A stretch of 64,000 bases of DNA from Amphibalanus amphitrite (lineage: Eukaryota; Arthropoda; Thecostraca; Balanomorpha; Balanidae): contig NW_024881584.1 of NCBI RefSeq assembly GCF_019059575.1, positions 399,501-463,500 of the forward strand, given 5' to 3'. Shown one piece after another: positions 7,241 through 64,000 of this stretch. A model generated the notes under the pieces. It worked only from the letters and a program-made list of their open reading frames with translations, had not been told where the DNA came from and did no database searches. Made by a program: the position numbers and the translations under genes. Numbering within the stretch: the stretch's first letter is position 1; each line of letters begins with the position of its first letter.

Positions 7241-8441
7241 TTAACCCGGCAGGCGGTGGGCCTCCCAGCCACCTTCCGCGCGGTGGGGAGGGGGGGTATT
7301 TTTTGCCCGCCTCGTATCTCCGAAACTACTGGACGGATCCGGAAAATTCAAACGGCGTTCGATAGCCCTGTCAAATTTGTCATTGGAAACCAAATTTCAT
7401 TGACCTCGGAGTCACCGATGACGTCACAAGTCAGGTCAAAGATAAAATGTTTCACCGTTCACGGGGCTTCTAGGGAAAGCGCTATAACACCGAGTAAAAC
7501 GCATTTTGCCGAAAATCAGCGATAAGGCGTCAGTTGTCTAGTACATATGTTGCTATTAGAGGTCACTGGTCATACCAGGTCAGGTCACAGGTCAGGTCAC
7601 CAAAGGTCACCAAGGTCACTACTCACTACATGAACCCAACTTTACTAAGGTTGTGCGATGCATGTTTTATGGCCAGTTTCTCACTTCCAACTCAATGGTA
7701 TTGGTTATAAGACCATCAGGCACGGTTTAAGTCACTTTCTGGTGGAGGTCAGGTCAAGGTCAGGTCAAAAAAGGTCACATTTCAAAGTTGATATTTTTGC
7801 ATAAAATGGGTATCAATTCGATGCAGCTCGTCACGGGGAGTCTAATGGTGGTCTTTGTTTTGCGCTACAAGGTCTAGAATTACTAAAAATTGAGTTTAAA
7901 AATTTGACGTCATCAATTTTGAACAGTTTTTTCGCAATAACTTGGCCAAAAAAAGCGGTATTGATCTCAAGATTGGTATGTAGATAGAAGGCGGTAGGGA
8001 CTATCACATATATTCCGTTTTTTTTTTCGAAATTCAAAACGTTTTTGGATTTTTCGGCAATTATATTCAAAAAATCTATTCTTTATTTTTGGGGGTCAAA
8101 ATCCATAAAATTCGAAAAACCGAAATTTCAGTTTTGTAGCCCTCTTCATTCCACACCTTTTATGTCCGGAACATTTTTCTCTATCTCTAAAGCTGTAGGC
8201 CTGACAGCTCTTCCCGCGAAACCTTTTTTTTGGGTCGAAAATGGCAAAAATGACGTCACTCTGACGTCATTAGCGGCGAACCTATCATAGCCTTTGGAAC
8301 AATTTTTGGTCACCATGTGCGCTAGCTACTCCCGGGAGGGTACTGAAAGTTTGGTGACGATCGGCGCAGCGGTTCTCGAGATATATCGAAAAAACTAAAG
8401 GGGGGCAAAAAATGCCCCCCCCCCACCGCCTGGAAGGTTAA
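7241..8441 (-). mobile_element. GLT element, family C copy 1 (1.20 kb)
   Basis: TTAA lies at 7241-7244 and 8438-8441. The left end is D: GCGGTG occurs twice 27 bp apart, then a G-run/TATTTTTT/C-rich palindrome. The right end is S: one CCAGGCGGTG then a C10/AAAAAAT/G palindrome. The inside carries AGGTC clusters (7430, 7560-7615, 7748-7780), the GCATGTTTTATGG block (7662) and an AACCGCTGCGCCGATCG block (complement near 8365). No ORF, so non-autonomous. TTAA target and CCC terminus fit the piggyBac superfamily. It shares its right TTAA with the next element. Confidence 0.9.
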
Positions 8442-9493
8442 CCCGCGCCGGGCCGGGGGTCGATGCGACCCCCCCTAAGGTTTTTCGAAGATAGCGTAAA
8501 AACGGCGGCGCGCAGCGCCGCCAAATTTGGCACAGCTTATGGGGCAACCTTTTAACATATGACCTAGAAATTTCAGGTCCAGGTCATCTTGGGTCAGGTC
8601 ACCAGGTCAGAAAAACCAGTACAAGGTCATGGTCAAATTTCAATTTTCTTTTGCACCTGTCCAACTCACAGTTTTATACTGATTTCCTTCACACTTTCAG
8701 GATGTGCTAAGTTCACCGAGTTGTATAACATATTGTTCGGGTTTTTTTTAAGGTCACTGACCTGAGGTCAGTTAGAGGTCATTACGTCGTAATGTTAAGC
8801 CTATGGGAAAATACTAAATTCGGAAAATACTGGAGATATCCGCTTCGTTCTATCACTTTTGTGCTTTGAAACCACAGTACTTAACAGCAGGTCACTGGGT
8901 GCTTCTTTGTTTGGTGTACTTATCCATGGGTCAGGTCAAATGAGGTCAACTGAGGTCAAATGATGTTTTGCCAATAACTTGGCATATAATGATGCTAGAG
9001 CTTAAAAAAATGGTGTCATTGTGTTCCTGGTGATCAGTCGATTCGAATGATATGCGATTTGATGCAATTTGGTTAACTTGAGCTTAATTAATTAATTTAA
9101 GTTTACTTAATAATTAAGAAAAGCTTTAAGTACGCTTAAGCAAGCAAAAAAGTATATCATTCGACGCGCCTTGACGTGCTGAGTTCAGTGATGCTTTTGT
9201 TTTTGCTCTAGTTATCTTTATTAGATCAAAAGTTACAGGCAAAAAACGTTTGACCTGTTTTTAGCGAAATTTGTACATTTATACCCCCCCCCCCCCAAAA
9301 AAAACCCTAAATTTTGACCTAGAGCAACCAAATTTGCACAGGGGCGAGAACTCCAGGAGGTCCACCTACCTACCAAATTTGGTGTTTCTAGGTGCCATAG
9401 GAGCCAATCGCGAGGGGGGGTCGCATCGACCCAACCCCCCCCCCCCCCCTGCCAGGCCGTGTTATGAGAATGCCCTGCCAGGACGAGGGTTAA
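8438..9493 (+). mobile_element. GLT element, family M (1.06 kb)
   Basis: The S end on the left follows the shared TTAA (GCCGGGCCGGGGG, loop TCGATGCGA). The D end on the right has CCTGGCAG twice at an offset of 26 bp, with loop TCGCATCGA and TTAA at 9490-9493. The internal inverted pair is CGAATGATATGC (9048) and TATATCATTCG (9153). TGACCT/AGGTCA words are at 8570-8640 and 8750-8960. No ORF. Confidence 0.88.
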
Positions 9494-9776
9494 CCTTAAA
9501 GCTACTGACCTTGAAGTTAAGCGATCTGTCATCAACCTTGACCTTTTAGGGCAGACAAAAAGATCATATTTTGAAGCGTCTCGACGAATGGATCTATTAT
9601 CTATGGTGCTACTATGTATTTCAGCAATCAGCTCTTTGTTGATTGCTTAGGAAATTATTCCCAAAAACAAAAACTTTTTACTCCAGGGCTATTTGGACTA
9701 TTTTAACCTCTTGTGACATGTGTATAATCCTGTTTTAACCAACTGGATTATCCTGCCATTCCATGAGGATTAGCTC
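9494..9776. other. No gene recognised; GLT-like remnant then unique sequence
   Basis: 9494-9600 has TGACCTTGA words and an AAGCGTCTCGACGAATGG segment resembling GLT interiors. 9600-9776 shows nothing recognisable. Confidence 0.4.
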
Positions 9777-9902
9777 ACCCAGCCAGCCTTCCCAAATGGG
9801 GCCCATATGGGCTGAAAGTGGGGCATCTGGGCTTAAGTGGGCATGGGCTACATGTGGGCTATTATCTGGGCTAAATCTGGGTCCCATATGGGCTGAGCCC
9901 CA

Positions 9903-11730
9903 GCAAACATGCCCACATGGGTCCCATATGGGGTGAACATGGGCCAGATGGGCCCACGTGGGACATGGGCTACAGATGGGCTACCCACATGGGCCCCATA
10001 TGAGATAAAAATGGGCCAGGTGGGCCAAAAGCATGTGGGCTGGAGATGGGCATCCCATGTGGGTCCCATATGGGGTGAACATGGGCCAGATGGGCCCACG
10101 TGGGACATGGGCTACAGATGGGCTACCCACATGGGCCCCATACGGGATAAAAATGGGCCAGGTGGGCCAAACGCATGTGGGCTGGAGATGGGCATCCCAT
10201 GTGGGTCCCATATGGGGTAAACATGGGCCAGATGGGCCCAGTGGGACATGGGCTACAGATGGGCTACCCATATGGGCCCATGTGAGATAAAAATGGGCCA
10301 GGTGGGCCAAACGCATGTGGGCTGGAGATGGGCATCCCATGTGGGTCCCAGATGGGCCCACGTGGGACATGGGCTACAGATGGGCTACCCATATGAGCCC
10401 CATAAGGGATAAAAATGAGCCAGGTGGGCCAAACGCATGTGGGCTGGAGATGGGCGTCCCATGTGGGTCCCATATGCGGTGAACATGGGCCAGATGGGCC
10501 CACGTGGGACATGGGCTACAGATGGGCTACCCATATGGGCCCCATATGGGATAAAAATGGGCCAGGTGGGCCAAACGCATGTGGGCTGGAGATGGGCATC
10601 CCATGTGGGTCCCATATGGGGTGAACATGGGCCAGATGGGCTCACGTGGGACATGGGCTACAGATGGGCTACCCATATGGGCCCCATATGGGATAAAAAT
10701 GGGCCAGGTGGGCCAAACGCATGTGGGCTGGAGATGGGCATCCCATGTGGGTCCCATATGGGGTAAACATGGGCTAGATGGGCCCAGTGGGACATGGGCT
10801 ACAGATGGGCTACCCATATGGGCCCCATATGAGATAAAAATGGGCCAGGTGGGCCAAACGCATGTGGGCTGGAGATTGGCATCCCATGTGGGTCCCAGAT
10901 GGGCCCACGTGGGACATGGGCTACAGATGGGCTACCCATATGGGCCCCATAAGGGATGAAAATGAGCCAGGTGGGCCAAACGCATGTGGGCTGGAGATGG
11001 GCATCCCATGTGGGTCCCATATGCGGTGAACATGGGCCAGATGGGCCCACGTGGGACATGGGCTACAGATGGGCTATCCATATGGCCCCATATGGGATAA
11101 AACTGGGCCAGGTGGGCCAAACGCATGTGGGCTGGAGATGGGCATCCCATGTGGGTCCCATATGGGGTGAACATGGGCCAGATGGGCTCACGTGGGACAT
11201 GGGCTACAGATGGGCTACCCATGAGCCCCATATGGGATAAAAATGGGCCAGGTGGGCCAAACGCATGTGGGCTGGAGATAGGCATCCCATGTGGGTCCCA
11301 TATGGGGTAAACATGGGCCAGATGGGCCCAGTGGGACATGGGCTACAGATGGGCTACCCATATGGGCCCCATATGGGATAAAAATGGGCCAGGTGGGCCA
11401 ATCGCATGTGGGCTGGAGATGGATATCCCATGTGGGTCCCATATGGGGTAAACATGGGCCAGATGGGCTCACGTGGGACATGGGCTACAGATGGGCTACC
11501 CATATGGGCCCCATATGGGATAAAAATGGGCCAGGTGGGCCAAACGCATGTGGCCTGGAGATGGGCATCCCATGTGGGTCCCATATGGGGTGAACATGGG
11601 CCAGATGGGCCCACGTGGGACATGGGCTACAGATGGGCCCCATATGGGAAAAATGGGCCAGGTGGGCCAAACGCATGTGGGCTGGAGATGGGCATCCCAT
11701 GTGGGTCCCATATGGATCACCCATGTAGGC
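9903..11730. repeat. 142-bp satellite array
   Basis: Unit landmarks (CGCATGTGGGCTGGAGATGG) fall 142 bp apart, for example near 10434, 10576 and 10718. Some units lack about 20 bp and are 122-124 bp. About a dozen units are present. Each unit is dense in ATGGGCC and GGGCCCCATATGGG palindromes. The long W/G/P-rich frames on both strands are artefacts of a unit without stops. Confidence 0.95.
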
Positions 11731-12049
11731 CCCATTACTCCAAGAGCATAAAAGCAAAAAAGGTGACTGTTGTTCATGTGAATTTTGGACTCCAAGTACA
11801 TCAAGTTCATACATGATGCCATATGGGGTCAATGTAGGCTGGCCCATATGGGTCCCATGTGGGGGCCGCGTGGGTCTCATATGGGGCATACGTGGGCTTG
11901 CCCATATGGGTCCCATGTGTCACCCACTGCTATTCCCATGTGGGGCCCATATGGAAGAGGTGGGGGGCCATGTGGGCCCCATATGGGAACCATGTGGGCA
12001 TGTTTGCTGGGATATGAACATTTCCTTTACTACAAAATGTTGGTATCTG
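11731..12049. other. Degenerate GGGCCC/CATATG-rich junction
   Basis: The 142-bp array breaks into a short unique piece (11745-11815) and then irregular CCCATATGGG words. No gene. Confidence 0.6.
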
Positions 12050-12880
12050 ACCCGACACCTATCTGGGCTGGATGCGGGCAGCATGTGGGCAAACTGGACA
12101 TCAACAAGCTGGGCACACCCAGCCGGGGCCCACATGGGGCCCGGCCGCCCACATGGACAAAATTTACTACAAAACTTTGTTAACTGACCCGACACCTAGG
12201 CATCTGGGCTGGATGCGGGCAGCATGTGGGCAAACTGGACACCAACACGCTGGGCACACCCAGCCGGGGCCCACATGGGGCCCAGCCGCCCACATGGGCA
12301 AAATTTACTACAAAACTTTGTTAACTGACCCGACACCTATCTGGGCTGGATGCGGGCAGCATGTGGGCAGACTGGGCACCAACAAGCTGGGCACACCCAT
12401 CCGGGGCCCACATGGGCAAAAGTTACTACAAAACTAATTGTTAACTGACCCGACACCTACACCATATATAAACATTTCCTTTATTACAAAATTTTGTTAA
12501 CTGACCCGGCACCTATCTGGGCTGGATGCGGGCAGCATGTGGGCAAACTGGGCACCAACAAGCTGGGCACACCCATCCGGGGCCCACATGGGGCCCAAAT
12601 GGGCAAACTTTACTACACTTTGTTAACTGACCCGACACCTATCTGGGCTGGATGCGGGCAGCATGTGGGCAGACTGGGCACCAACAAGCTGGGCACACCC
12701 ATCCGGGGCCCACATGGGGCCCAAATGGGCAAACCTTACTACAAAACTTTGTTAACTGACCCGACACCTATCTGGGCTGGATGCGGGCAGCATGTGGGCA
12801 GACTGGGCACCAACAAACTGGGCACACCCATCCGGGGCCCACGTGGGGCCCACATGGGCAAACCCCAGCCACCATGTCTA
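12050..12880. repeat. Approximately 126-134-bp satellite array
   Basis: The landmark GACCCGACACCTATCTGGG and variants recur near 12052, 12186, 12329, 12503, 12629 and 12758. Units contain GGATGCGGGCAGCATGTGGG and GGGCCCACATGGG. A different consensus from the 142-bp array but the same word vocabulary. Confidence 0.9.
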
Positions 12881-13317
12881 TGTGGGCCCCACATGGGCAG
12901 TTGATGGGCATGGTGGGCTAGGTGGGCCATGGGCTAGAGATGGGCAAATATGTGGGCTGCATGTGGGCCCCACATGGGCTGCCCACATATTTTTTGGCAG
13001 GCATAATGCTTGATAATGAGATTGCTTGCACATGTACGAGGGCATATCCAGGAATTTTGGTGAACACAGGCATTCACGCGGTGTTCCTGTATGGTGGGCT
13101 TAACATGGGCACTGCGTGGGCAGCCCATGTAGTGGGGTGTAGGTGGGCTGGATGTGGGCAGCCCATTATTTATTTTTTCACTGTCCAATGTGTATGATAT
13201 TACAAGAAAAAAGAACTCGCTGTTTAGTCTCATGCCTCCAAAATACACTTCGACGTCGTGAGGAAGTCGCATAGTTGATGTTTGTGAGACCAGCTACGGC
13301 TGATATTGGACAGTCAA
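12881..13317. other. Array edge and unique sequence
   Basis: Irregular GGGC/CATGTGGG words continue to about 13165. The rest is unrecognised and precedes the LTR-like sequence. Confidence 0.4.
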
Positions 13318-15063: not shown

Positions 15064-16075
15064 AAACGATGCTAGGGAGGTGTGAGCCAGCATGTGGCCC
15101 ACCTAGGGCCCACATCTGCTGGCCCACGTGGACCCCATATGGTACCCACCTTGAGCCCATGTGGGCTAGCCCAGGTGGGCCACATATGGTACCCATCTTG
15201 AGCCCATGTGGGCCAGCCCAGGTGGGCCCCATATGGTACCCACCTTGAGCCCACGTGGGCCAGCCCAGGTGGGCCCCACCATTTACCCAGGGACAAATTT
15301 ATGTGGGCCCCACATGGGCTGCCCCCATGGGTCCCACCAAGTGGCCCACCTGGGCCCCATGTGGGGCCAAGGTAATAATGTTGGCTGGGTATGGGTCCCA
15401 GCTGGGTCCCATTTCGAACCCACATGGGCTCCAGGTGGGATTTTTCGCTTATACCCATTTGGGTCCCGGCTGGGAAAGCCCATATGGGACCCGGCTGGGC
15501 CCAATATGGGTCCCATGTCGAACCCACATGGGCCCCATGTGGGATTTTTCGCTTATACCCATGTGGGTTCCGGCTGGGAAAGCCCATGTGGGACCCATAT
15601 GTGCCCCGGCTGGGCCCCATATGGGTCCCATTTCGAACCCACATGAGCCCCATGTGGGATTTTTCGCTTATACCCATGTGGGTCCCGGCTGGGAAAGCCC
15701 ATGTGGGACCCATATGTGCCCCGGCTGGGCCCCATATGGGTCCCATTTCGAACCCACATGGGCCCCATGTGTGATTTTTCAATTATACCCATGTGGGTCC
15801 CGGCTGGGAAAGCCCATGTGGGACCCATATGTGCCCCGGCTGGGCCCCATATGGGTCCCATTTCGAACCCACATGGGCCCCATGTGGGATTCTTCAATTA
15901 TACCCATGTGGGTCCCGGCTGGGAAGGCCCATGTGGGACCCATATGTGCCCCGGCTGGGCCCCATATGGGGCCCATCTGGACTGCCCATATGGGACCCAG
16001 TTGGACGCCCATGACAAACACATCTGGGCCCCAAGTTGGCAGCCCAGATGGGCCCCAGTTTGCTGCCCACTTGGG
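15064..16075. repeat. 115-bp satellite array
   Basis: From about 15400 the landmark TATACCCATGTGGGT repeats every 115 bp (ends of CCC at 15560, 15675, 15790, 15905). The unit contains GGGCCCCATATGGGTCCC and GGGATTTTTCGCTTATACCC. 15064-15400 is a less regular GGTGGGCC / CATATGGTACC variant. It shares words but not unit length with the arrays on the other side of the Gypsy piece. Confidence 0.93.
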
Positions 16076-19519: not shown

Positions 19520-20711
19520 ATAACCCGCGCCCTGGTGTGGGTCTGAGCCACCTTCGCCCTGGTGGGGGGGGGGGCCAAAATGACCCCCCCCGTCTAACTC
19601 GAAAACGAAGAGGGCTAGGAAGACGCGGAAAAAAGCAAACGAAAGCCCATAACAAGTACGTTCGAAAGTATTTCGGTCATTTTTTTCGCTAAGGTCAATA
19701 TTGAGGTCGCTAGAGGTCATCATAGGTCAAATTTCAGTGTTTTCGGTGTTGCCGGACATATTCCGCTGTAGCTCGGAAACTAGAAGAGCTAGAGAGCCGC
19801 GGAAAAAAGCAATCGATAGCTCTTTTCAAGCTCTTTCGCCAAGGTTCGTCAGATTTGACCTCAGCTCAACGGTTTGGCCTACAGAGGTCATGCAAGGTCA
19901 ACTTGGCAAATTTCGTTGAAAATGTTTTTAACTATAGCATGCATTCACGAGAAAATAGAGAAACGATTCATGCACCATCGTGCTTGGCTCGTCGAGACGC
20001 GTCGAATGATATATAGTTTGACCTCGAAAGGTCATTTTGAAAATTTGACCTCAGGTCAAGGTCATGACCTTACCGAAATAGGTCATGCTGCATATCATTC
20101 GATCCGCATTGACGAGACAAACACGATAAACGTCGAACGGAGTCTCTATCTCTATTCAATAACAAGTAAGTGCAGAAAAACCGCTGGTGACCTCTGGTGA
20201 CCAGGGAGATGACCTAGCGTGACCTCAGCGAGGTCACAAGCAAATGGTTTCACATGGGCTGTGATTTGCTGACCCAAGACACTTCAATAACGAAATATAG
20301 GAACAATCACGCCCGATTTAGCTGAAAAACAACTACTTTTCGATTCTCCCATTGACTTATAATGGGGAGCAGCGATGACCTGACCTGACCTTAGGTCACA
20401 TTTATAAAAAATCCGAGATAGCCATTTTGTAGAGCTGGGTGACATCTTCAAGTACTGTAAATTTTACATCGATCGGATAAAAGCTGTGCCTTTGAGAGAG
20501 CTTTGAACTTTTTTAGAGGTGGTGTCAGTTTTGGTGACCTTGTGACCTGACCTGACCTGACCCGAACCCCCCAAAAAAGGACATGATGTAAAAATGTTGA
20601 ATAAACAGCTATACAAAGTTTCAGGGCGCTAACTCAAGTGGTTTCTGAGTTATCGCTGAAAAACCACAGGGGGGGCCAAAATGCCCCCCCCCCCACCAGG
20701 GCGAAGGATAA
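19520..20711 (-). mobile_element. GLT element, family N (1.19 kb), flanked by ATAA instead of TTAA
   Basis: The D end on the left has CGCCCTGG twice 27 bp apart and then G12/CCAAAATGA/C8. The S end on the right is CACCAGGGCGAAGG with the same CCAAAATG loop. Both flanks read ATAA (19520-19523, 20708-20711) in direct orientation, as expected if a variant target was duplicated. It contains the inverted pair CGAATGATAT (20010) and ATATCATTCG (20093) and many AGGTCA words. Confidence 0.87.
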
Positions 20712-21753: not shown

Positions 21754-22892
21754 GTAACCTGCGCACCGACGGGGGTTCGCGCCAACTTAGAACCGACGGG
21801 GAGGGGTGGTTGACCGCCTCCCCCCCCCCCTGAGATCTCGAGAACGAATCAAGATAGCGAAAAGCGGTAAACGGCGTGGGGTACGCACGGACAAGGTCTA
21901 CAATCAGGTCGAAGATGACGTCACAGGGGTCAAAAAGTCAAAATGGCGGCGCTAGATATGAGGTGAGTTTTTCTCGGGAACAAACCAATGGCAACATCGT
22001 GATCATCTCGTCAATCCGCATCGAAGCATATATGTGTTGACCTCGAAAGGTCAAGGTCAAAGGTTGACCTCAGGTCACGTGACCTCAAGGTCATCATCTA
22101 TACCATTCGATGTGCCTTGACGCAGTGGCGGATCCAGGGGGGGGGGGCAAAATGGGCATTTGCCCCCCCCCCCAAACGGCATAATTTTAACATTACGCCT
22201 GTGGACGATGCATGGAAAGAATCGATAAATTGTTATGGTTGCCCCCCCCCCAACACTCTGAGCTGGATCCGTCTCTGCCTTGACGAGTTGAACACAATGA
22301 GACCATCGTCGTGCCTGTATCTCGTTCCTGTAAGGAGTTATTAGCAAAAAAAAAAAATATGGTGACCTTTGATGACGTTACATGACCTTACAGTCGCTCA
22401 GTAGCAAAACAGACCTCAAGGTAGTCAAGGTTGATCGTATCTGAAGTCATTTATGGTACCTATATTGGGCCGTACCGACGCGTTTTAGTGAGAAAAAAAA
22501 CAGGGAGTTGATTTCCCTCATTGAATTGTAGCCGGTAATGGGGAGGTCAAGAAATTGACCTGACCTTAGGTCATAGATATCAAAATTCCGAGATAAACAA
22601 ATTGTAGCTACATATGACTTCATTACATCCTGCGACTTTCAAAAGCCTCCGTCTTCTACTGTAGCCTTGACACGGTGACAAAGTTGCATCAAAGTGGTTT
22701 GAGGTTGGATCATTCGAAGTGACCTGGTGACCTGACCTTGAAAGGTAGGAGGTTAAAACTTGCACACCATGTGTAAAATTGATGAGGAAATAGTTATGCA
22801 AATTTCGCGGCGCTACATGCCGCAGTGTTTCCGTTATTCACGAAAAACCTCAGGGGGGCGGTCACCCTTCCCCCTGTCGGTGTGCGGGTTAA
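21754..22892 (-). mobile_element. GLT element, family E copy 1, with nested hAT MITE
   Basis: The D end on the left (ACCGACG twice, 27 bp apart) follows GTAA (21754-21757), a one-base change of TTAA. The S end on the right is CAGGGGGGCGGTCACC then GTCGGTGTGCGGG and TTAA 22889-22892. Removing the 155-bp MITE and its duplication leaves about 976 bp. TGACCT/AGGTCA words cluster at 22039-22100. A second copy (40.3-45.7 kb) lacks the MITE. Confidence 0.87.
22123..22277. mobile_element. hAT MITE (155 bp), copy 1
   Basis: Starts CAGTGGCGGATCC and ends GGATCCGTCTCTG. The perfect 8-bp duplication CCTTGACG lies at 22115-22122 and 22278-22285. The related GLT copy at about 40310 shows the empty site with a single CTTGACG. 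It carries its own internal G11/C10 palindrome. A second copy is at 47247-47407. Confidence 0.95.
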
Positions 22893-25750: not shown

Positions 25751-25814
25751 TGTATGTGAAAAAACAACATTTCCAAAGCCTTGCATGCATTATCGGCGTA
25801 ATGCATTTTGAAAT

Positions 25815-44356: not shown

Positions 44357-44636
44357 CTTGAGAGTTAAGCGAGCTCTTTAATTATGATTTGTGCGAAAAA
44401 CGATTAGCGGGAGTAGCCTTCCATGGGATCAGCACATTCTTGTAAGATTCTTCAATCTTACCAGAATCAGCATTCTCGCAAGAATCTGCCTATGCCAGGC
44501 AGATTCTTATAAGATCTGTATGATGTTGGCCAATCTTGTACAAGCTCTGCTAGGCCTTGCAAGACTGTCTTCAAAATCTTATAAGATCATGCAAGATAGT
44601 GAAGATTCTGGTAAAATCGTATAAAACTTTTTCACA

Positions 44637-47238: not shown

Positions 47239-47246
47239 CAGAGCAG

Positions 47247-47407
47247 CAGTGGCGGATCCAGGGGGGGGGGCAAAATGGGCATTTGCCCCTCCCAAACGGC
47301 ATAATTTTAACATTACGCCAATGGACGAGGCATGGAAAGAATCGATAAATTGTTATGGTTTGCCCCCCCCCCCCAAAAAAAAAAACTCTGAGCTGGATCC
47401 GCCACTG
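47247..47407. mobile_element. hAT MITE (161 bp), copy 2
   Basis: Ends CAGTGGCGGATCC and GGATCCGCCACTG. Perfect 8-bp duplication CAGAGCAG at 47239-47246 and 47408-47415. It contains G10/CAAAATGGGCATTTG/C4 and a C10/A10 stretch. Copy 1 is at 22123. Confidence 0.96.
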
Positions 47408-47415
47408 CAGAGCAG

Positions 47416-47715: not shown

Positions 47716-48597
47716 ACGAAAACAAGGCGTTTCGTTGTAAGGAAAGCAATGGCATAAAACACTTAAATTGCAAAATCAATATGGGCTTTTAAAGTAGAAG
47801 CTTTCGACACCCTTGTTTCTCAGCGTTTTTGCTACTGCGCTCTGCTGAAAAGTGGATTCTATCAATATCCTCAGATTAAATTGAGCTTTATTGGAAAAGG
47901 CTTACCGGAAGTAGCTTAATGTAAAGGCAGGGATTGGTTTTTCGAGAGCCCACATTGATGAAATCTGAAGTGGCGTAACAAATCCAGGAAGGAAAGGACG
48001 AAAAGATTTAACAAAATGAAACCAGCCTGTAGCTGAGGGGACCGAATAAAGGCGGCAGCAGCTGTAGCCTGTCAAACAATGTGCGGCCTCTCTTCGTGTA
48101 AGTACTTACAAGTGATTATACATATAGAAGTTATAATTCTTGTAAGTGCAATACAAAATGACCATATCGTATCTGCAATCTGCACACCAAGAAATGCCTA
48201 CATTGTATGGTTTTGTTTTGTTGGGGTCCAACAAGACCTGTTCAGAGCCGGGAGAATAATAGGAAATAGGGGGGGGGGGGGCATTGGTCTGGGTGGGCAC
48301 CCTAGCCACCCGTCGGGGCTGAGCCCATCCAGTGGACAGGCCACCCAGCCCCTGACACTGGACCCGGCTATGGGCCTGCTCCTGGGGTGGAGCAGTATCG
48401 GGATAAAGTTACCCGTCCAGCCCGAAACAGGGGGTGGAGGCTTGGAGGAGAGGCAGCTGACTATTCTGAAGATGGAAACGACGGAACGGAGCAAGAAAGC
48501 ATTTTTGTTAGCACATGCATACTGAAACTACATAAGTAGGGAGACTGTGGAGAAGTGAGCCATTGTTCGTAAGTACCTATGTATGTACATGAACTTT
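47716..48597. other. No gene recognised
   Basis: Unique sequence. 48265-48430 is GC-rich (G13 run at 48269). A plus-strand frame at 48079-48525 shows no known family. Confidence 0.35.
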
Positions 48598-48660
48598 AAA
48601 TCCACGCCCCGCATGGGGGGGGGCAATCTGCCCCTTCCCTCTTCCGTGTTCCGCCAATCG
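48598..48660. mobile_element. GLT S-end remnant
   Basis: CCACGCCCCGCATGGGGGGG, loop CAATCTG and a C run, followed by CCGTGTTCCGCCAAT, parallel the family D left end (GCGCCCCGCTGGG, loop CAGAATCTG, GTTTTTCGCCAATAAC). Only the end survives. Confidence 0.55.
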
Positions 48661-48738
48661 TGTGCGTGTCAAACAGCGTTTCATATAACAGCGAGTTAAA
48701 AACAGCGACAGATAACAGGGCCGCCGCCGGAGGCTCAC

Positions 48739-50992: not shown

Positions 50993-51840
50993 TTCATGTG
51001 ACTGGCTCATGCATGTAGTGCTAGGGTGACCGGTTTTGCAAAAAGTTTCGAAAAGTTTTGCTCCCCAGGTCTAATCTAACGTATTTGGGGGTGCTGATCA
51101 CGAATCCGGCGGAAAAAATATAAAATTCGAATTTTTTTTGACCGCCCCGGCTCTTTGAATATTTCCGGTTTTCTCAATTTTTGCATGTTTTTGAATAATA
51201 TGATGAATGTAATGAAAAAATATTAACAATGTATCGCTAAATGCATGTACCAGTCGATTCGGCATACAGCGGCGTCGAAATCGGCAGGCGGCCTGCTTCA
51301 CCGGCCTCGCAGGAAAGCATAAGGCTCGGAAGGTTTGCGTTAGTTACCCGATTCTCTCCATAGATGGCGCTGGCGTAGCCGCCCGCCGGCCGGTCGTTGC
51401 CGTGCCGTTTACAGCCCCGGCGGTCACTTGCGACCGTCGTGGTCGTTATGCTACGTCTATCAAAGCACGACAGAAATGTTCACTTCATTTTTATGTTACT
51501 TCAGACATATTTTAGACCTAATGTTGAATTGGATAAATGACTATCGTGAATTGGCGAAATAGTCGAGTGCGCTCGGGAGCCATTTACAATAGCGAGGAAC
51601 GTAGGTGGATTGATCTGAGTAACATATGACACTGCGTTCACTGTTGATATGAAGTTTATTCACACTATGTAGCATGAAGTCGGGTGACATGAGAACAAAG
51701 TGACTAACATACCTTGTGTACGACACATGGATGAAGCTAATGCTACTTTTTCATTTTGTTTCGGTAGGCCCGTTTGTTCAGAGCCTAGCCGTCCTGTCGG
51801 TCTGCGCCTGTTACAGCTGTGATTGATTCGGTGGTCAGCT

Positions 51841-52163
51841 TTACAGCCCTCTCGGTGGATTGGGTATGGCAGGGGACCCCCGTTTTGGAGTCTGTAGAAA
51901 GTCGCGCAACTCATCCTCGCTCATGTGTCGTACACAAGGGGGCTCAATGTCTCGGCCCTCGTCAACCGCTCGCTGCACGTTAACCAGTTCCATATAGTTG
52001 TTCGCTTGAACGTTAATTTCCGGCAGCCGGAAGTGCCGAATGGGCTGCTGCTGTGGCGGTGGGGGTGGCAGCTTTGGCGGCGGTCGTGGCGGCGGTGCCG
52101 GCGGTGGTGGTGGTGGTGGTGGCGGTGATGGCCGCCGCCGTTGCAGACGCCGCTGCTGCTGTT

Positions 52164-52194
<31 letters not shown>

Positions 52195-52297
52195 TGGTGG
52201 TGGCGATGGCCGCCGCCTCTGTCGCCGCTGCGCTTCTGCTGTGGCGGGGGCGGGAACGGCGGCTGCTCCAATCGCTGCCTTTTTTGACGAATGCTCT
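51841..52297 (-). CDS. Proline-rich protein with conserved-looking C-terminus, left palindrome arm
   Basis: The minus-strand frame crosses a (GGC/GGT)n / poly-Pro stretch and ends with a balanced segment of about 60 residues containing LPEINVQANNYMELVNVQRA, EPPCVRHMSEDELRDFLQ and SPAIPNPP before the stop. The same segment is encoded in the right arm. Family not recognised. The stretch beyond the arm centre is palindromic read-through. It may be an exon captured by the foldback element. Confidence 0.4.
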
Positions 52298-52332
52298 GGA
52301 TTAATAATCCAAGACGAATGGATTAATAATCC

Positions 52333-52435
52333 AGAGCATTCATCAAAAAAGGCAGCGACAGGAGCAGCCGCCGTTCCCGCCCCCGCCACAGCAGAAGCGC
52401 AGCGGCGACAGAGGCGGCGGCCATCGCCACCACCA

Positions 52436-52466
<31 letters not shown>

Positions 52467-52792
52467 AACAGCAGCAGCGGCGTCTGCAACGGCGGCGGCG
52501 GCCATCACCGCCACCACCACCACCACCACCGCCGGCACCGCCGCCACGACCGCCGCCAAAGCTGCCACCCCCACCGCCACAGCAGCAGCCCATTCGACAC
52601 TTCCGGCTGCCGGAAATTAACGTTCAAGCGAACAACTATATGGAACTGGTTAACGTGCAGCGAGCGGTTGACGAGGGCCGAGACATTGAGCCCCCTTGTG
52701 TACGACACATGAGCGAGGATGAGTTGCGCGACTTTCTACAGACTCCAAAACGGGGGTCCCCTGCCATACCCAATCCACCGAAAGGGCTGTAA
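52333..52792 (+). CDS. Proline-rich protein with conserved-looking C-terminus, right palindrome arm
   Basis: Mirror copy of the left-arm frame with near-identical C-terminus (one R to K change in NPPKGL), stop at 52790-52792 and AATAAA at 52855-52860; the left arm has AACAAA instead. Mutations that keep this frame open in both arms would suggest function or a young duplication. No start codon can be assigned because the frame runs through the palindrome centre. Confidence 0.4.
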
Positions 52793-53611
52793 AGCTGACC
52801 ACCGAATCAATCACAGCTGTAACAGGCGCAGACCGACAGGACGGCTACGCTCTGAATAAACGGGCCTACCGAAACAAAATGAAAAAGTAGCATTAGCTTC
52901 ATCCATGTGTCGTACACAAGGTATGTTAGTCACTTTGTTCTCATGTCACCCGACTACATGCTACATAGTGTGAATAAACTTCATATCAACAGTGAACGCA
53001 GTGTCATATATTACTCAGATCAATCCACCTACGTTCCTCGCTATTGTAAATGGCTTCCGAGCGCACTCCACTATTTCGCCAATTCACGATAGTCATTTAT
53101 CCAATACAACATTAGGTCTAAAATATGTCTGAAGTAACACAAAAATGAAGTGAACATTTCTGTCGTGCTTTGATAGACGTAGCATAACGACCACGACGGT
53201 CGCAAGTGACCGCCGGGGCTGTGAACGGCACGGCAACGACCGGCCGGCGGGCGGCTACGCCAGCGCCATCTATGGAGAGAATCGGGTAACTAACGCAAAC
53301 CTTCCGAGCCTTATGCTTTCCTGCGAGGCCGGTGAAGCAGGCCGCCTGCCGATTTCGACGCCGCTGTATGCCGAATCGACTGGTACATGCATTTAGCGAT
53401 ACATTGTTAATATTTTTTCATTACATTCATCATATTATTCAAAAACATGCAAAAATTGAGAAAACCGGAAATATTCAAAGAGCCGGGGCGGTCAAAAAAA
53501 ATTCGAATTTTATATCTTTTCCGCCGGATTCGTGATCAGCACCCCCGAATACGATAGATTAGACCTGGGGAGCAAAACTTTTCGAAACTTTTTGCAAAAC
53601 CGGTCACCCTA

Positions 53612-54266: not shown

Positions 54267-54806
54267 TTAACCCTATTCCTGGCGGGCTCCGCCGGGACAA
54301 GAAACTGGCGGGGGGGGGGGCCGATTCGGCCCCCCCTGAGATCTCGAGAACGAAGCAAGATAGCGACAAGCGGCAAACGGCATCGGATACGCACGGTCAA
54401 GATCTACAATTTTTACTAAGGTCATTTTCAGGTCAGGTCAAAGATGACGTCACAGGGGTCGAAAAAGTCAAAATGGACCTGACCTGACCTTAGGTCACCG
54501 ATATCAAAATTCCGAGATAAACAAATTGCACATACTGGTACCCTAACTAAAGCCTGAAGAGAAGAAATTGATCGGTCAAAAACTCTAGCTCTGGCGTGAT
54601 TGCAAACTTTTCTGAGGTAGGGTCACCAAACCGCCTCTGGTGACCTGACCTGAGGTCAGATCAACTCAAAATTTTCAGACATGTTGCGTAGAAGCCTTCT
54701 AGGAAAAGTCAGAAAATTTGAGCTTCCTAGCTCAACGCGTTTGGGAGAAATAACCAAAAAACCTCAGGGGGGGCTCCTGAGGCCCCCCCGCCAGGAATAG
54801 GGTTAA
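54267..54806 (-). mobile_element. GLT element, family G (0.54 kb, shortened)
   Basis: TTAA 54267-54270 and 54803-54806. D end left (CTGGCGGG twice, 26 bp apart; loop CCGATTCGG). S end right (loop CTCCTGAGG). The interior resembles family E (GATACGCACGG, GATGACGTCACAGGGGTC, TGACCTTAGGTCACCGATAT). Less than half the usual length. Confidence 0.9.
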
Positions 54807-55750
54807 CCCTAGAACGCCTAGGGGGGGTTGTATCAACCCCCCCCCCTGAGTTTTTTTCGAAGTGCACGCTAAACGGCTTGTCGTAGCGGGCTGAAATTTT
54901 CAATACCCTCTGGGGCAACCTTTGCGCATCTTTTGCCGAAAAAAAATTCATCGGGTCATGTCAGGTCACGGAGTTATGACGTCATAAGAGGTACAGCCTC
55001 CGGCCGACAGTTACCAAACGTGTGCGCCGAATCCCTAGGTTTTCTGCCGGTGATACCCACATTGTTTGATGGATCATGATGAAACTTCCCATGCATGTTG
55101 GTGCAAGCATTGGCTATCGTGTGGTGCAAGAAAATTGACCGGGTCAGGTCAGGTCACGGAGCTATGACGTCACAAGAGGAACAGCGTCCGGTACTATTTT
55201 TGAAAAGCACCCGAACCACTATTTTGCTAATTCTTGTCACCTCAATGGGAATATGCAGCAATATTAGCTTCTACAGGGAGCAAATGGACCTCCCAAATCA
55301 AAAAATACAATCAGATTTCAAAAATTTAAATTTTGATTTTTCGAATTTCTGCCGCCGACTGTGACCTTGCCGACTTCCGGCGCTCCCAAAGCGCCATTTT
55401 TAGAGCTAGGGAAACGAAATACATACCAAACGATAGAGAATTGATCAAGAAACACGATAGTGAAGGTTTCAAGTCGATATCTCCCACCGTTTTGTCGCAA
55501 TCACCGCGGAAAGTTGAAAAAGTTTGATTTTTTTCGGAAAATTTGACCTTTGACCGGTCATAAGTAGGTCAAATGTTGACCTAGGACCAAAAAATATACC
55601 ACCAATCGCGAGATCTCGTTGAGAGCAATCCGTTGGTTTTTTCCGCTAAGCTCTACGACCTTCCGTTTCGAAACGCCAGGGGGGGGGGTCGTAACAACCC
55701 CCCCCTGGTCGTTCGTGTTATGAGAAATGGCCTGGTCGTGCGAGGGTTAA
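54803..55750 (+). mobile_element. GLT element, family H (0.95 kb)
   Basis: The S end at the shared TTAA reads CCCTAGAACGCCTAGGGG, close to the canonical piggyBac terminus CCCTAGAA, with loop TTGTATCAA. D end right (ACGACCAGG twice, 27 bp apart; loop TCGTAACAA), TTAA 55747-55750. CAGGTCACGGAG(C/T)TATGACGTCA occurs twice inside (54962, 55148). No ORF. Confidence 0.9.
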
Positions 55751-57846: not shown

Positions 57847-58974
57847 TTAACCTTCCAGGTAGTGGTGGTGAGGGGGGGGCATTTGTTTGCCCCCCCCCCT
57901 TTAGCTTTTTCGATATATCTCCAGAACCGCTGCGCTGATCGTCACCAAACTTTCAGTACCCTCCCGTTAATAACTATTGCACATAGTGACCTAAAAATTT
58001 CCCAAAGGCTATGATAGGTTTGCCGCTAATGACGTCAGAGTGACGTCATTTCTGCCATTTTCGACCAAAAAAAAAGTTTCGCCGGAAGAGCTGTCAGGCC
58101 TACAGCTTTAGAGATACAGAAAAATATTTCGGACATAAAAGGTGTAAAATAACCAGAGCTACAGAACTGCTATCTCGGATTTTCGAAATGTTTGGATTTT
58201 TACCCAAAAAATAAAATAAAAATGAATATAATAGCCGAAAAATCCAAAAAGTTTTTTGAATTTCGAAAAACCGGAATATATGTGATAGTCCCTACCGCCT
58301 TCTATCTACATACCAAATTTGAGATCAATACCTCTTTTTTGGCCAAGTTATAGCGAAAAAACTGTTCAAAAATGATGACATCCAATTGTCAAACTCAATT
58401 TTTAGCAATTCTAGACCTCATAGCGCAAAACAAAGACCACTATTAGACTCCCCGTGACGAGCTGCATCGAATTAATACCCATTTTATGCAAAACTATCAA
58501 TTTTGAAATTTGACCTTTTTGACCTGACCTTGACCTGACCTCCACTAGAAAGTGGCCTAAACCGTACCTGATCGTCTTGTACCCAACACCATTGAGTTGG
58601 AAATGAAAAATTGACCATAAACATGCATCGCACAACCTTAGTAAAGTTGGGTTCATGTGGTGACCCTTGGTGACCTGACCTGTGACCTGACCTGGTATGA
58701 CCAGTGACCTCAAATAGCAACATATGTACTAGACAACTGACTCCCTATCGCTGATTTTCGACAAAATGCGTTTTACTCGGTGTTATAGCGCTTTCCCTAG
58801 AAGACCCGTGAACGGTGAAACATTTTATCTTTGACCTGACCTGTGACGTCATCGGTGACCCCGAGTTCAATGAAATTTGGTTTCCGTCGACAAATTTGAC
58901 AGGGCTATGGAACACCGCTTGAGTTTTCCGGATCCGTCCAGTAGTTTTGGAGATACGGGGGGGGGGGGGTAAAT

Positions 58975-61888
58975 AACTAACCGAGGATCTTGATGTGGTT
59001 GTTATAACGGAGGCATGGATCAATGAAAAGTTGTTAGGGGACCGTACACAAGATTATGATATTACTGGTTATGACATGTTTGTCTACCAAAGGAAAATCA
59101 AAGTAGGTGGAGGTATTTTGGTCTACGTAAAGAAAAATCTAAGACCTTTTGAAAGGAGCGATATTGGCACGTCCAACGACGTCGAATCTCTTTGGATCGA
59201 TATCTTTCCTAACTTAGGCAAAAACGATAAAATAAGAATAGGTGCTTTCTACAGACCTCCCAATCAAACACAACAAACTAATCTTGCCATGCTTGACGAG
59301 ATAGAAAAGGGCATTGTCAGTGAAACAATTCATTTAGGGGATTTCAATTTGCCCAGACTTGTGGGGGGTCTAACATCTATTACTGGGGAAACGAGGCTAT
59401 TCAGGGAAAACTTTGATGAACTATTTTTGACTCAACATGTTCTGGAGCCCACCAGAAAAGATGAAATACTTGACTTAATTTTAACCAACAACGAAAGTCT
59501 TATTGAAGATGTCACATTGGGTGAAACAATTGGTAACAGTGACCATGTGATTATAAGGTTCAACATTAAATGTAAATTAAAGAGAACAAGCATCAGACAA
59601 AACCTTACCCAAAATTTTGCAAAAGGAAATTATGAAGCTATTCGGGCATTTTTTAGAAGCATGAAATGGGTACGAATGCTTGAAGGGAAAAATGTTCACG
59701 AAATGTGGAGTATTTTCAAAACAACAATAGCAGAGGCCCAAGATCTTTTTATTCCTATGAAAAGAAAGCTGTCAGGAAAACCATTAAAACCAATTTGGTT
59801 TAACAGTAATGTGCAAAAGAGTTTTAGTGAAAAGAAAACAGCATTTCGTCTGTTCAAAACAGCTCCATCGGCTGACAATAAATCGCATTATATCAAAGCC
59901 AGATCGAGACTCAAAAAGATAATTCGAGAGGCCAAACGAGCAGCTGAGATTAGATTGGCAAATGAATGTGGAGGTGATCTCAAGCGGTTTTTCGGTTTTT
60001 ATAAATTTAACAGGCATGATCCAAGAATCGGGTTAATAGAAAAAGATGGGCAAGTTTATCATGAAGATAAGCTCAAAGCTAGGACATTTAATGAGCAGTT
60101 TTCAAGTTTTTTTACTGATGAGTGTCTAGCAAATATGCCAATAAGTAGAAATGATGCCAGACTGTTCAGCAAACTTACAACTATCGATTTAGTTCAAACC
60201 GACATCTTGAAACATCTCGAAAGCCTTAAAGCAAATAAGGCTTGTGGTCCCGATGCGATTTCAGCAAGAATACTAAAGGAAGCTGCAAAAGAGCTTTCCG
60301 TGCCTCTTTATATAATATTCAAACACTCATTTGAAACAGGTATTATACCTGAAGACTGGAAGCATGCGTACGTGGTACCAATCTTTAAGGGGGGTAGTAA
60401 AACTAAGGCTGAAAATTATAGGCCTGTTAGCTTAACTTCTATCGCTTGTAAAATACTCGAGAAAATAATAAAATGTAATATACTGAATCACTTAGAGCAA
60501 AATGAACTTTTATTGCCTTCTCAACATGGATTCAGAGCTGGACGATCGTGTCTGACAAATTTGCTAGACTTTCTCGAATATGTAACAGAGCTATTAGACA
60601 GGGGACAGAAGGTAGCAGTAGTGTATTTAGATTTTTGTAAAGCTTTCGACAAGGTTCCACATCAAAGATTATTAGTTTCATTACAGTGTCATGGCTTAGA
60701 CGGTTTCCTCCTTAGATGGATAGAGACCTGGCTGGTAGGACGTAAGCAGCGAGTTGTTTTGAATGGACAACAGTCTGAGTGGGCGGAGGTTAAGAGTGGT
60801 GTACCACAAGGTACGGTTCTAGCCCCATTGCTCTTTATTATTTTTGTAAACTCTCTGGATAATAATTTAAGCAGTAGGCTTTGGAAATTTGCTGATGACA
60901 TTAAGCTGGCAAAAGCAATTACATCAGACGAGGACATGAAAACATTACAATCAGATTTAAACATTCTTTTCAATTGGAGCAGAAAATGGCAGATGGAATT
61001 TAACGTAGAGAAATGCAAAGTTCTTAGCGTTGGGGTAAATGAAAATGATCGATACTATTTAAACGGCAGTCAACTGCAAAATGTTTTTGAAGAAAGAGAT
61101 TTAGGTGTTTTAATCACAAATGATCTAAAATTCAGTCATCAATGTCAAGAAGCCCGTAAAAAGTCTCTGAAAATGTTGGGAGTAATATATAGAAACGTTA
61201 ATTATAAAAGTAAAGACGTTATGAAAAAACTTTATTGTTCTCTTGTTCGTCCACATTTAGAGTATTGTGCACAGGCATGGTACTCGCCCTTTAAAAAAGA
61301 CGCCAAGTCTCTAGAGCGTGTGCAGAGGAAGGCCACTAGGATGGTGCATGGTTTTCGCGGGATGACTTACAGAGAAAGGCTTGTCTCGTTAAATATGTTT
61401 TCACTCCATTACCGGAGAGTGAGAGGTGATTTGGTTGAATTGTTCAAAATTTATAGAGGTATTGATAAGCTAGATTTTAAGAGCTTATTCACGATAAGTT
61501 CGAACTCTACAAGAGGACATGGATGTAAATTGGTAAAGAAATTTTCAAAAACGCGTTTAAGGCAATCCTTTTTACTAACCGCCTCATTGATATGTGGAAT
61601 AGCTTACCTCCTTGGGTTATTGATAGTTCCTCCCTTAACAAATTCAAACATAACGTGGATTTGTATTTTACGGAGCGTGGTGCGGTCTTTGACACCATTG
61701 AAGACGTAGACAACTCTGATAGGTTTCGTTGTTAGGATAATAGGATACACTCATTGCATTCATTGTCATGTAAATCTTGTTCAGTGTGCATGAATGTGTA
61801 CATCACTGTGTATTTCATCCTTGTAACCTTGTTGGGCTCCTGTAGCCTGTTGTTACATTGTAATATATGTTATGTTATGTTATGTTAT
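58975..61888 (+). mobile_element. CR1/jockey-type LINE, 5'-truncated, with target duplication GTAAAT
   Basis: GTAAAT flanks both sides (58969-58974, 61889-61894). The 5' end is truncated inside the endonuclease. The 3' end is a short (TTATG)n tract (61867-61888), as in CR1/L2-like LINEs, instead of a poly-A tail. Inserted into GLT family C copy 3, so younger than it. Confidence 0.9.
58977..61735 (+). pseudogene. LINE ORF2: endonuclease and reverse transcriptase, N-truncated and frameshifted near its end
   Basis: The protein nicks target DNA and copies the element RNA. The frame is open from about 58977 and reads TEDLDVVVITEAW at once, so the endonuclease start is missing. Numbering from 58995, GDFN is near residue 115 and NSDHVII near 182. 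RT motifs follow: NKACGPDAIS, PIFKGGSKTKAENYRPVSLT, LPSQHGFRAGRS, VVYLDFCKAFDKVPH, SGVPQGTVLAPLLF and FADD at 632-635 (F in place of the common Y). Near 61540 the frame shifts: the typical LINE C-terminus (NRLIDMWNSLPP) lies in another frame and stops at 61733-61735. One frameshift in about 2.75 kb suggests a recent copy. Confidence 0.93.
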
Positions 61889-61961
61889 GTAAATGCCCCC
61901 CCCCCCCACACACACACACCGCGCGGAAGGTGGCCGGGAGGCCCACCGCCTGCCGGGTTAA

Positions 61962-62318
61962 GCCAGCCGAGACTCCTGCGTGACTTGGTCACGTGATCGT
62001 GTTTACGCTTCCCGCTGACCACCCTCACAGCGAAGTTGATTGCTTTGTCAATGCGCTTACGCTGGAGAGACGAGGCGGGGGCCCTGCAGCCCGCGGACAA
62101 TTTCGGACGTATGATGACGAACGTATGACGAGGGACTCAAAGTTGTAGGCCTAACCTAACCCTTGCCCGTATTAGTGTTTTGTCACCCGCGAACGAATAA
62201 GGGGGGGTCCGTTAGACCCCCCCCCCCTTGCCGTTTCGCTACTGATCGAGCTAAAGCTTCGCGGAAAAACGAGCGTGTTGCCCGTGACGAGAGGAAGTCG
62301 ATGATATTGATACCCAAT
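61962..62318. mobile_element. Unique sequence, then a GLT left-end fragment
   Basis: 62184-62318 starts TCACCCGCGAACGAATAAGG, then G7/TCCGTTAGA/C12 and CTGATCGAGCTAAAGC, i.e. an S end without TTAA. It is cut by the next element. 61962-62180 shows nothing recognisable. Confidence 0.5.
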
Positions 62319-63333
62319 TTTAGCCCGCGCCACGCTGGGGGGGGGGGGCAGAATCTGACCCCCTCCCTCCCGTTTTTCACCAATAACTTCTAAACGCGTT
62401 ACGCCAGCAACATGAACCTTTGAGTACCTTTTCATACATCAATTTAACACGTTCCCTGAAAATCTGAGCGAAATCCGTCGGAAATTTTTTGAGAAAATGA
62501 CGCTTAGGTGACGTCATTTCACGCCATTTTCGCCTCAAAAACGGCAAAACTTCAAACGCCGCTAACATCTTCATTTTTAAAGGAATCAAGACGTAACAAA
62601 AAAGTGTATACATGATTCTAATTTGTCTATCAAATGGCTATCTCGTTTTTTTTTATTTGGGATTTTGACCCATGTTTTTTCTTTAAAATAACTGACTTTT
62701 TTGGAAAATAGTTATAAAATCAAAAACTTTGAGTGTATCGAAAAAACCGGAATATATGTCGGAGAAGTGGTCCTATGTGCACCTGTACAGTACATACCAA
62801 TTTTTAGAAGAATCGGTTAAAAAATGTGGCAATTATTGAAATTCATACAGAGGTGGTCCATATCACTTTTTAAGTCTGCCTATTGAATTTCATGAATAAA
62901 ATGACCCATAAAACATGTGTCGCACATGCCCTTTTCTATATCTTGTTTTTGGTGACCTGACCTGACTTGACCTGACCTGACCTGGACCTTGACCTTTGAA
63001 TGATATTGTATGCAACAAATATTGTCTTAGTAGCCTAAGAACGCGTTTTTGGCAATCAGTGTCAGTCCATTCTTCGGCAACTACGGTGCAAGGCCGATAC
63101 TGTAGAAACTTGCATTTTGTACCCTTGACCTGACCTTGACCTGACCTCTGACCTACTTAAGCAAAAATGGTTCTTAATGTCCGCCTTGTTGAGAGCTTCC
63201 GATTGCCGTTTTCCCCGTCTTTCTACGACCATCGGTTCGGAAGTTAGACAGGGAATCATGTGCAGCTGCCCCCCCCCCCCCCCCCCCCCAGCAGGGCGCG
63301 TATGGCTGAATAGCCCAGCGGGGCGTGGGTTAA
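62319..63333 (+). mobile_element. GLT element, family D copy 2 (1.0 kb, internally deleted)
   Basis: The left flank is TTAG (decayed TTAA) followed by CCCGCGCCACGCTGGGG and loop CAGAATCTG. The right D end finishes at TTAA 63330-63333. Similar to 18232-19419 throughout, lacking about 170 bp between the ATATATGTCGGAG block and the CAGAGGTGGTCCATATCAC block. Confidence 0.9.
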
Positions 63334-63451
63334 AGGAAATAGTTCACTTTTAACATGGGGTTTTGAACTGGAACTGGATGATGATGATGATGATGATGTT
63401 GATGAATAGCAGTTTTGTAGCTTGAGCTGAGACTAGCACAAATCAGAAGCC
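63334..63451. other. Short unique sequence with (GAT)n
   Basis: Contains a GATGATGATGATGATGATG run at about 63377. No gene. Confidence 0.6.
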
Positions 63452-64000
63452 TTAACCCGCGCATGACTGGGGTATTTTCCATTACGCGAGTGACTGGGGG
63501 GGCTCTCCAGAGCCCCCTCCTATCTCCGAAACTACTGGGCCGATCGTCAAAATTCAAACGGCGTCTGATAGACCTGGAAAAACTGTCGAGCGAAACCTAT
63601 TTTCATTGACCTCGAGGTCACCGATGACGTCACAGGTCAGGTCAAAGTAAAAATTATCGACATTTTTGTTAGTTCACAATTTAGGCTCTGACCGCCGGAC
63701 CGCCGGTCCGATCAGGCTCATTTTTGGTTTACGCACTCCTTGACGGATGCCTTAGATACCCTGAGGGTACCAAACTTTTACTTCGAATTTTTAAGGTCAA
63801 GGCCATGTCATCCTAGGTCACGAAAATTGTATATCATGTATCGGTCACGTGACGCATGTTTTATGGTCCATTTTACTCTTAGATTTCGAAAATAGTGTCG
63901 TCTGTGTCATTTGAGGTCATTGTCAGCTGAAATTACCGGAGGTCAGGTCACTTTCAGGTCAGAAAAGGTCAAATTTTGAAAATGAAATTTTTCAACAAAA
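63452..64000 (-). mobile_element. GLT element, family I interior with different ends, cut by window end
   Basis: TTAA 63452-63455. D end with TGACTGG twice, 27 bp apart. The palindrome loop is CTCTCCAGAG, whereas family I copy 1 has CTATTCATAG. From CTCCGAAACTACTGGGCCGA (63523) onward it follows 45.78-46.26 kb closely, including GACGCATGTTTTATGG (63851) and AGGTCA words. Confidence 0.87.

Follow-up and report, generated by a model that had tools for sequence, protein, structure and literature searches.

TTAA-flanked elements with one single and one doubled end in Amphibalanus amphitrite are very probably non-autonomous relatives of T. ni-type piggyBac

End layout of the elements in the window

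The window analyzed here, a 64,000-nt stretch of the Amphibalanus amphitrite genome (807.5 Mb in all; contig NW_024881584.1, positions 399,501 to 463,500), holds animal-like sequence with minisatellites, one reverse-transcriptase open reading frame (ORF), and a set of TTAA-flanked elements, hereafter the clan, in which one end carries a single terminal motif and the other carries that motif twice. Ends were collected by scanning both strands for TTAACC tips and for hairpins formed by a G-run and a C-run, and 37 of them were typed by eye as single (18) or doubled (19) before any scoring. They delimit 15 two-ended elements, which together with their inserts cover ∼21 kb of the window, plus several halves and fragments. 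Using T. ni piggyBac and piggyBat as queries, no transposase was identified in the window by tblastn, hmmsearch, or phmmer (no match better than an E value of ∼1).

Positions were counted from the first C after the TTAA. A single end consists of CCC, a family motif extending to approximately bp 13, a G-run that opens a palindrome, and a C-run that closes it, while a doubled end consists of CCC, the motif, a spacer, a second copy of the motif, and then the palindrome. TTAA was present at both ends of 12 of the 15 two-ended elements (the sites of Q, X, and C2 are decayed), and the tips read CCC except for the single ends of family A, which read CCT. The G-run mostly started at bp 14 in single ends or bp 41 in doubled ends. 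Its start fell at bp 13 to 15 in 16/18 single ends (exceptions, A3 at bp 22 and P at bp 20) and at bp 38 to 44 in 17/19 doubled ends (A3 started at bp 51, and H had no run of four G). X, N, G, and U carried an additional run of at least four G further out. Palindromes, located by position and symmetry, were found at both ends, behind the single motif and behind the inner motif copy, and the motif recurs in a 27-bp step; the palindromes were weak in F, H, V, and W, among others.

The repeat was scored as the number of matches of bp 4 to 14, out of 11, at a given offset. The end labeled doubled outscored its partner in all 15 two-ended elements, with a margin of a single match only in H and M, and the offset was 27 in 11 elements, 26 in three (B1, G, and M), and 28 in one (F1). 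F1 and F2, which belong to the same family, differ by one base (28 versus 27). Scores of at least 6/11 were reached by 17 of the 19 doubled ends, the decayed N (4/11) and T (5/11) falling below, and by two of the 18 single ends, owing to C-rich sequence. When all 28 TTAACCC tips of the window were tested blind, 10 ends scored at least 7/11 at offsets 26 to 28, compared with a mean of 0.8 and a maximum of 5 in 500 shuffles and with 1.7 at random window positions. At a threshold of at least 9/11 there were 7 such ends (shuffle mean, 0.02; maximum, 2), and no other single offset gave more than three ends at 7/11. These results confirm a fixed end layout, single on one side and doubled on the other.

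Strand is given in the single-to-doubled direction, the single end of a plus-strand element being at its lower coordinate and that of a minus-strand element at its higher one. Two-ended elements on the plus strand were B1 (8438 to 9493; offset 26), C1 (18232 to 19419; offset 27, 10/11), D1 (22889 to 24087; offset 27), F1 (37848 to 38739; offset 28, 11/11), F2 (41638 to 45266; offset 27, 11/11), which has a long insert in its interior, O (54803 to 55750; offset 27, 9/11), A3 (57847 to 61961), and C2 (62320 to 63333; offset 27, 9/11), whose single end is flanked by TTAG. A3 is split by a retrotransposon, with an ORF of 904 codons encoding reverse transcriptase and endonuclease (58995 to 61709) near its doubled end. 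Those on the minus strand were A1 (7241 to 8441), Q (19520 to 20711; offset 27, 10/11), with target sites decayed to ATAA at the doubled end and TTAT at the single end, X (doubled end at ∼21754, flanked by GTAA; single end at 22892), H (32120 to 33039; offset 27, 6/11), A2 (40452 to 41641), G (45705 to 46896; offset 26), and M (54267 to 54806; offset 26, 6/11). A common TTAA joins A1 to B1, A2 to F2, and M to O.

The incomplete copies were R (4356 to 4851, plus strand), related to N and with a decayed doubled end at 4851 (TTAC; offset 28, 7/11); V (34447 to 34556, plus), a single end alone; N (39306 to 39456, plus), a decayed doubled end (4/11 at 27); P (45263 to 45708, minus), the single-end half of a second X-type copy; W (48597 to 48700, plus), a fragment with a C-like single end; T (62153 to 62319, minus), a fragment with a decayed doubled end; and U (63452 to 64000, minus), with a doubled end at 63452 (offset 27, 9/11) and continuing past the window edge. 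The X-type copy that includes P is interrupted by the A2-F2 pair, which sits at one TTAA (flanks, 40316 to 40455 and 45263 to 45708); the uninterrupted counterpart of this site, near 22418 in X, has one TCAA. X also contains, at 22122 to 22278, a small, putatively hAT-like element with ends CAGTGGCGGATCCAGGGGG; its second copy (47246 to 47408) is 87% alike.

Genome-wide tips and shared interiors

A pattern in which a TTAACCC tip is followed by a G-run allowed to open anywhere from bp 12 to 42 matched 82,957 times genome-wide, compared with 282 times in the reversed control. The 100 matches listed all came from the start of one contig, on the plus strand, and among them the G-run position was strictly bimodal, at bp 14 to 18 in 56 and at bp 39 to 42 in 44. 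These listed matches included 30 distinct doubled tips, of which 22 scored at least 7/11 at offsets 26 to 28 (shuffle mean, 1.4; maximum, 6), and the best offset was 26 to 28 in 26/30, the remainder having a best offset of 24, 32, or 33 or a tie. With a lenient threshold of 8/11, 12 motif groups were distinguished among the 30 tips. Doubled ends of family F numbered 1,845 genome-wide (control, 0), with offsets, among the 100 matches listed, of 27 in 49, 28 in 49, 29 in one, and 40 in one. Those of family O numbered 1,552 (control, 0), of which 99 of the 100 listed were at 27 and one at 29. Tips starting with CCCGG, 6,560 in number (control, 9), showed the same layout in the 81 readable among the 100 listed, apart from a small number of copies with indels and a single short outlier. 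Copies of the same family are not independent, and counting unlike tips is more informative. Searches beyond this genome with single exact patterns gave nothing in collections of viral contigs and genome contigs, a hand-made pattern from the window likewise matched nothing, and no piggyBac relative was confirmed in either collection.

The first-pass annotation, made from the window sequence, had claimed that one end is single and the other repeats its motif, at offsets of 26 to 28. Both points hold in all 15 two-ended elements and, by the blind test, far beyond shuffles, and the genome-wide search gave G-run positions in two classes among the matches listed. Its word "invariant" was slightly too strong, as copies with indels exist (offsets 29 and 40; best offsets 24, 32, or 33 or tied).

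Of the five abutting, TTAA-sharing pairs in the window, four are joined single end to single end, and a head-to-head preference was considered. Genome-wide this bias is gone: 1,152 pairs were single to single, 2,312 single to doubled (1,258 + 1,054), and 1,163 doubled to doubled, counts that include several start positions per place in all three classes. They match the 1:2:1 ratio of random orientation, and the preference was therefore rejected.

When elements were oriented single end first, different families aligned mostly collinearly. The block behind the single-end palindrome was recovered in 11/12 left-out families (H failed) and that behind the doubled-end palindrome in 9/13 (E value up to 1e−3; N, H, B, and D failed). 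Over the 507 bp that lead to the tip edge, G and U share 85% identity, yet their motifs and palindromes differ, which indicates that tips turn over on a kept interior. Within families, the motif copies matched each other better than between families (permutation, 0/20,000; 11 families), even though X is a few bases out of register, which counts against the result. The same was found for the palindrome cores (0/20,000; 10 of the 11 families scorable).

Clusters of AGGTCA/TGACCT recurred every ∼165 to 190 bp in the interiors of most window elements, and also in five transposase-bearing family O loci described below (L042 and L044 to L047). Their autocorrelation across 11 elements peaked at a z of 7.4 (null maximum, 3.9) with a recurrence of ∼175 bp, and AGGTCA occurred 10.5 times per kb in a set of 18 elements and fragments versus 1.3 outside; F1 and V lacked the clusters. 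Masked self-comparison revealed degenerate tandem repeats at lags of 160 to 200 and 320 to 340, and the autonomous O element has repeats at ∼187 to 190 bp. Since such repeats occur in both window elements and autonomous O, repeat structure is the simpler reading of the clusters and was favored over nucleosome phasing or nuclear-receptor sites.

Other repeats lie elsewhere in the window. They comprise a near-perfect (98%) inverted repeat of 2.6 kb at 51022 to 53611 with mirrored ORFs of 250 codons, long arrays of CCCATATGGG-like palindromic words at 9804 to 12900 and 15100 to 16050 (periods of ∼70, 115, 126, and 142 bp), and, outside clan elements, a direct repeat of 527 bp (25246 to 25752 and 33210 to 33736; 95% identical).

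Transposase genes and their phylogeny

A PF13843 search of the genome gave 116 scored matches, and 50 loci were examined. A transposase frame lay between family O tips at five loci (L042, L044, L045, L046, and L047) and between Q-like tips at L050, and in all six the transposase ORF is preceded by the single end and followed by the doubled end. The doubled tip of L047 is flanked by GTAA, and the frames of L042, L045, and L046 are shorter or shifted. PF13843 matched with E values of 2.4e−69 (L044) and 2.1e−64 (L050), and the DDD triad of the clan transposases aligned with D268/D346/D447. Window element O matched the 3,971-bp transposase-bearing element at L044 over its left 389 bp (96.9%) and right 314 bp (92%), with no match in the middle; on this alignment, window O is a deletion derivative of the L044 element.

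Ends, mostly CCCATTAG..., were also found at 22 further loci from eight families outside the clan, with no such repeat where scored. Taking one element from each of these eight families, no copy exceeded 5/11 at offsets 26 to 28. Four of them (L006, L032, L037, and L055) were asymmetric in another way, with a strong 5′-end palindrome near bp 24.5 that had no counterpart in the corresponding range of the 3′ end; end asymmetry of two kinds occurs in this genome. L036 was initially a candidate for a non-clan transposase between clan ends, but it turned out to be a nested insertion, the whole 3,380-bp L037 element (99.8% identical) lying at 2429 to 5808 inside the L036 clan element. L025 is likewise a non-clan piggyBac nested in a clan element. 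At 21 other loci, including L033, the two ends were not both determined. Separately, eleven loci (L019 to L029) carry a 604-codon piggyBac transposase with near-equal scores, and 9/11 have CCCATTAGTGCCC at both ends, which together are a sign of recent spread.

A tree was built from 24 of 39 distinct rows, with the end trait scored in 18. T. ni piggyBac grouped with L033, L042, L044 to L047, and L050 on one side of a branch with support of 100/99, piggyBat (end type assigned after PMC11707139) falling outside, and the end trait changed once across the 18 scored rows. Clan transposases share ∼30% identity with T. ni piggyBac, whose seven best BLAST matches were clan-side proteins (269 to 239 bits), the next being piggyBat (121 bits). 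The cysteine-rich domain (CRD) motif CxxC-CxxC-CxxH-CxxC, named in PMC8086355, was found among the 39 rows only in L033, L044, L046, L047, L050, and T. ni piggyBac, several rows, including L042, L045, L055, and the piggyBat fragment, ending before the CRD or shifting out of it. Thus, the two families with a 27-bp doubled end lie inside the T. ni clade and have the T. ni-type motif where it is readable, while the eight scored families without a doubled end lie outside, and the seven of these with a full-length frame lack the motif. The doubled-end layout therefore appears linked to the T. ni-type CRD in the few families available.

Relation to piggyBac and implications

The end layout itself has already been described in T. 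ni piggyBac. Right-end (RE) bp 34 to 63 of that element are nearly equal to left-end (LE) bp 7 to 35, and a palindromic 19-bp repeat of its ends is bound by a CRD dimer (PMC7351741). With the native transposase, LE/RE is the sole pair that both excises and integrates, and the unequal ends are called "puzzling" and "enigmatic" in the same source. Scored as above, the printed ends (PMC7351741 and PMC7846023) gave a repeat of 11/11 at offset 27 and palindrome centers at bp 25 and 53. Clan elements and T. ni piggyBac (IFP2, LE35/RE63) thus have in common the TTAA target, CCC tips, a 27-bp doubled tip motif at the 3′ end only, a palindrome that follows the single motif at one end and the inner copy at the other, the polarity of a single 5′ and a doubled 3′ end, the transposase clade, and the T. 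ni-type CRD motif. They differ in tip and palindrome sequences, in where the palindrome starts (near bp 14 for the G-run/C-run palindromes of the clan, bp 17 in piggyBac), in the very large number of clan ends and their many different tip motifs, and in the clan interiors with degenerate ∼170- to 190-bp repeats rich in AGGTCA. Resemblance to CMITEs of Acropora corals, which have been linked to piggyBac-like elements, extends to TTAA-flanked families of miniature inverted-repeat transposable elements (MITEs) with unlike tips and a common interior, some in tandem; CMITEs differ in being ∼100 bp long, and the part of the source available mentions no doubled end (PMC2872659).

Very probably, the window elements are non-autonomous members of a T. 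ni-type piggyBac clan that is large and diverse and has transposase genes in the same genome. By their transposase sequences, families O and Q-like belong to T. ni-type piggyBac, and membership of the other window families is very likely because they share the interior blocks and the layout. T. ni-type piggyBac has thus radiated widely in this genome, non-autonomous copies included, and the clan is no new superfamily. The first-pass annotation had placed a protein-set spacing rule near piggyBac, which is supported by the PF13843 transposases between such ends at six loci in two families (the gene that it suggested looking for in this genome), by their grouping with T. ni piggyBac, and by the same 27-bp duplication there. 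Its separate superfamily was not upheld, and the combination with G/C palindromes that it did not recognize has a counterpart, as these palindromes correspond in position to the palindrome that the CRD dimer binds in piggyBac.

Several observations weigh against this interpretation. Both ends were determined in 28 of the 50 loci examined, out of 116 scored transposase matches; a transposase of their own was seen for only two tip families (O and Q-like) and is assumed for the others; and a third clan-type transposase (L033/L056) had no recognizable ends. The amino-acid make-up of T. ni piggyBac and piggyBat is unusual, and piggyBat has a long branch. M has unlike palindrome cores at its two ends, those of F and O differ in part, and no core was recognized in H by the rule used. 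PMC8086355 describes PLE-wu as complex-ended with the other type of CRD, and it may be an exception to the CRD link; the same source sees no straightforward correlation between end organization and CRD fold in the available data.

The doubled end could instead reflect common descent from one ancestor, with the 27-bp spacing having no function. Interior blocks are common to families at both ends with the same polarity, and the layout was accordingly inherited. However, both motif copies and most palindromes remained matched within each family through the turnover of tips, the best offset was still 26 to 28 in 26 of the 30 distinct tips listed, and T. ni piggyBac, at ∼30% transposase identity, has the same 27. 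Unconstrained sequence would not persist in this way, and descent without function is very unlikely.

It is highly improbable that the 27-bp rule is general to all piggyBac elements rather than to one branch. Asymmetrically placed subterminal repeats do occur in other piggyBac-like elements, e.g., CsuPLE1.1 of Chilo (PMC4273485), but universality is ruled out, unless they were misread, by the eight repeat-less families, one element each, four of which have the palindrome near bp 24.5 at the 5′ end only. piggyBat of Myotis lucifugus has a PF13843-type transposase, TTAA, and, at one end, palindromes that follow the tip motif. Its ends are described as not conforming to the piggyBac pattern, with left-end motifs at bp 11, 55, and 99 (44-bp steps), palindromic P motifs on the left end only, and a different CRD fold (PMC11707139).

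TTAA is targeted by more than one group of elements. Sola3 is a further one. That the elements are MITEs of another TTAA superfamily merely resembling piggyBac, above all Kolobok, is barely credible: Kolobok also targets TTAA and no stretch of the window is clearly like the T. ni or Myotis transposase, but Kolobok termini are 5′-RR...YY-3′ (PMC9587614) rather than the 5′-CCC...GGG-3′ of the clan, and the PF13843 transposases between clan ends refute Kolobok for families O and Q-like.

Under the T. ni-type piggyBac interpretation, the end 5′ of the transposase gene has one motif-palindrome unit. At the other end, 3′ of the gene, the tip occurs again 27 bp (∼2.6 helical turns) further in, and the palindrome follows this inner copy. 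The doubled end would thereby offer two sites, the outer for catalysis and the inner for binding, and one single and one doubled end would be synapsed, seamlessly cut, and pasted into TTAA. By analogy with the T. ni structure and model, a CRD dimer may read motif and palindrome, with an extra inner dimer on the doubled end. Tips and palindromes would differ among families through co-evolution of each with its own transposase, and the protein assembly would hold the geometry fixed.

What is new here is the extent to which the geometry persists during tip turnover and, in few families, its link to CRD type. Bouallegue 2017 is said to distinguish four groups of piggyBac-like elements by their end repeats (PMC8086355), so part of the finding may already be in print; a literature search, mostly without full texts, met no statement of a 27-bp rule across families. 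On a further proposal we are evenly divided: a single end may have to pair with a 27-bp-doubled one, comparable to the 12/23 rule of V(D)J recombination, and this requirement may have become fixed in a single event in the branch of piggyBac with the T. ni-type CRD, while other branches would solve the task otherwise, e.g., with a palindrome on the 5′ end only.

The end layout is a simple signature for locating transposon ends, and many natural tip variants are available to study end recognition. Both kinds of piggyBac, with and without a doubled end, coexist in one genome. An odd trait of one laboratory transposon thereby becomes a testable assembly rule, its link to the CRD still on few families. 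If the pairing proposal is true, the many tip-palindrome kinds of the A. amphitrite genome would amount to a naturally occurring collection of transposase and end specificities, matched to each other on one constant geometry.

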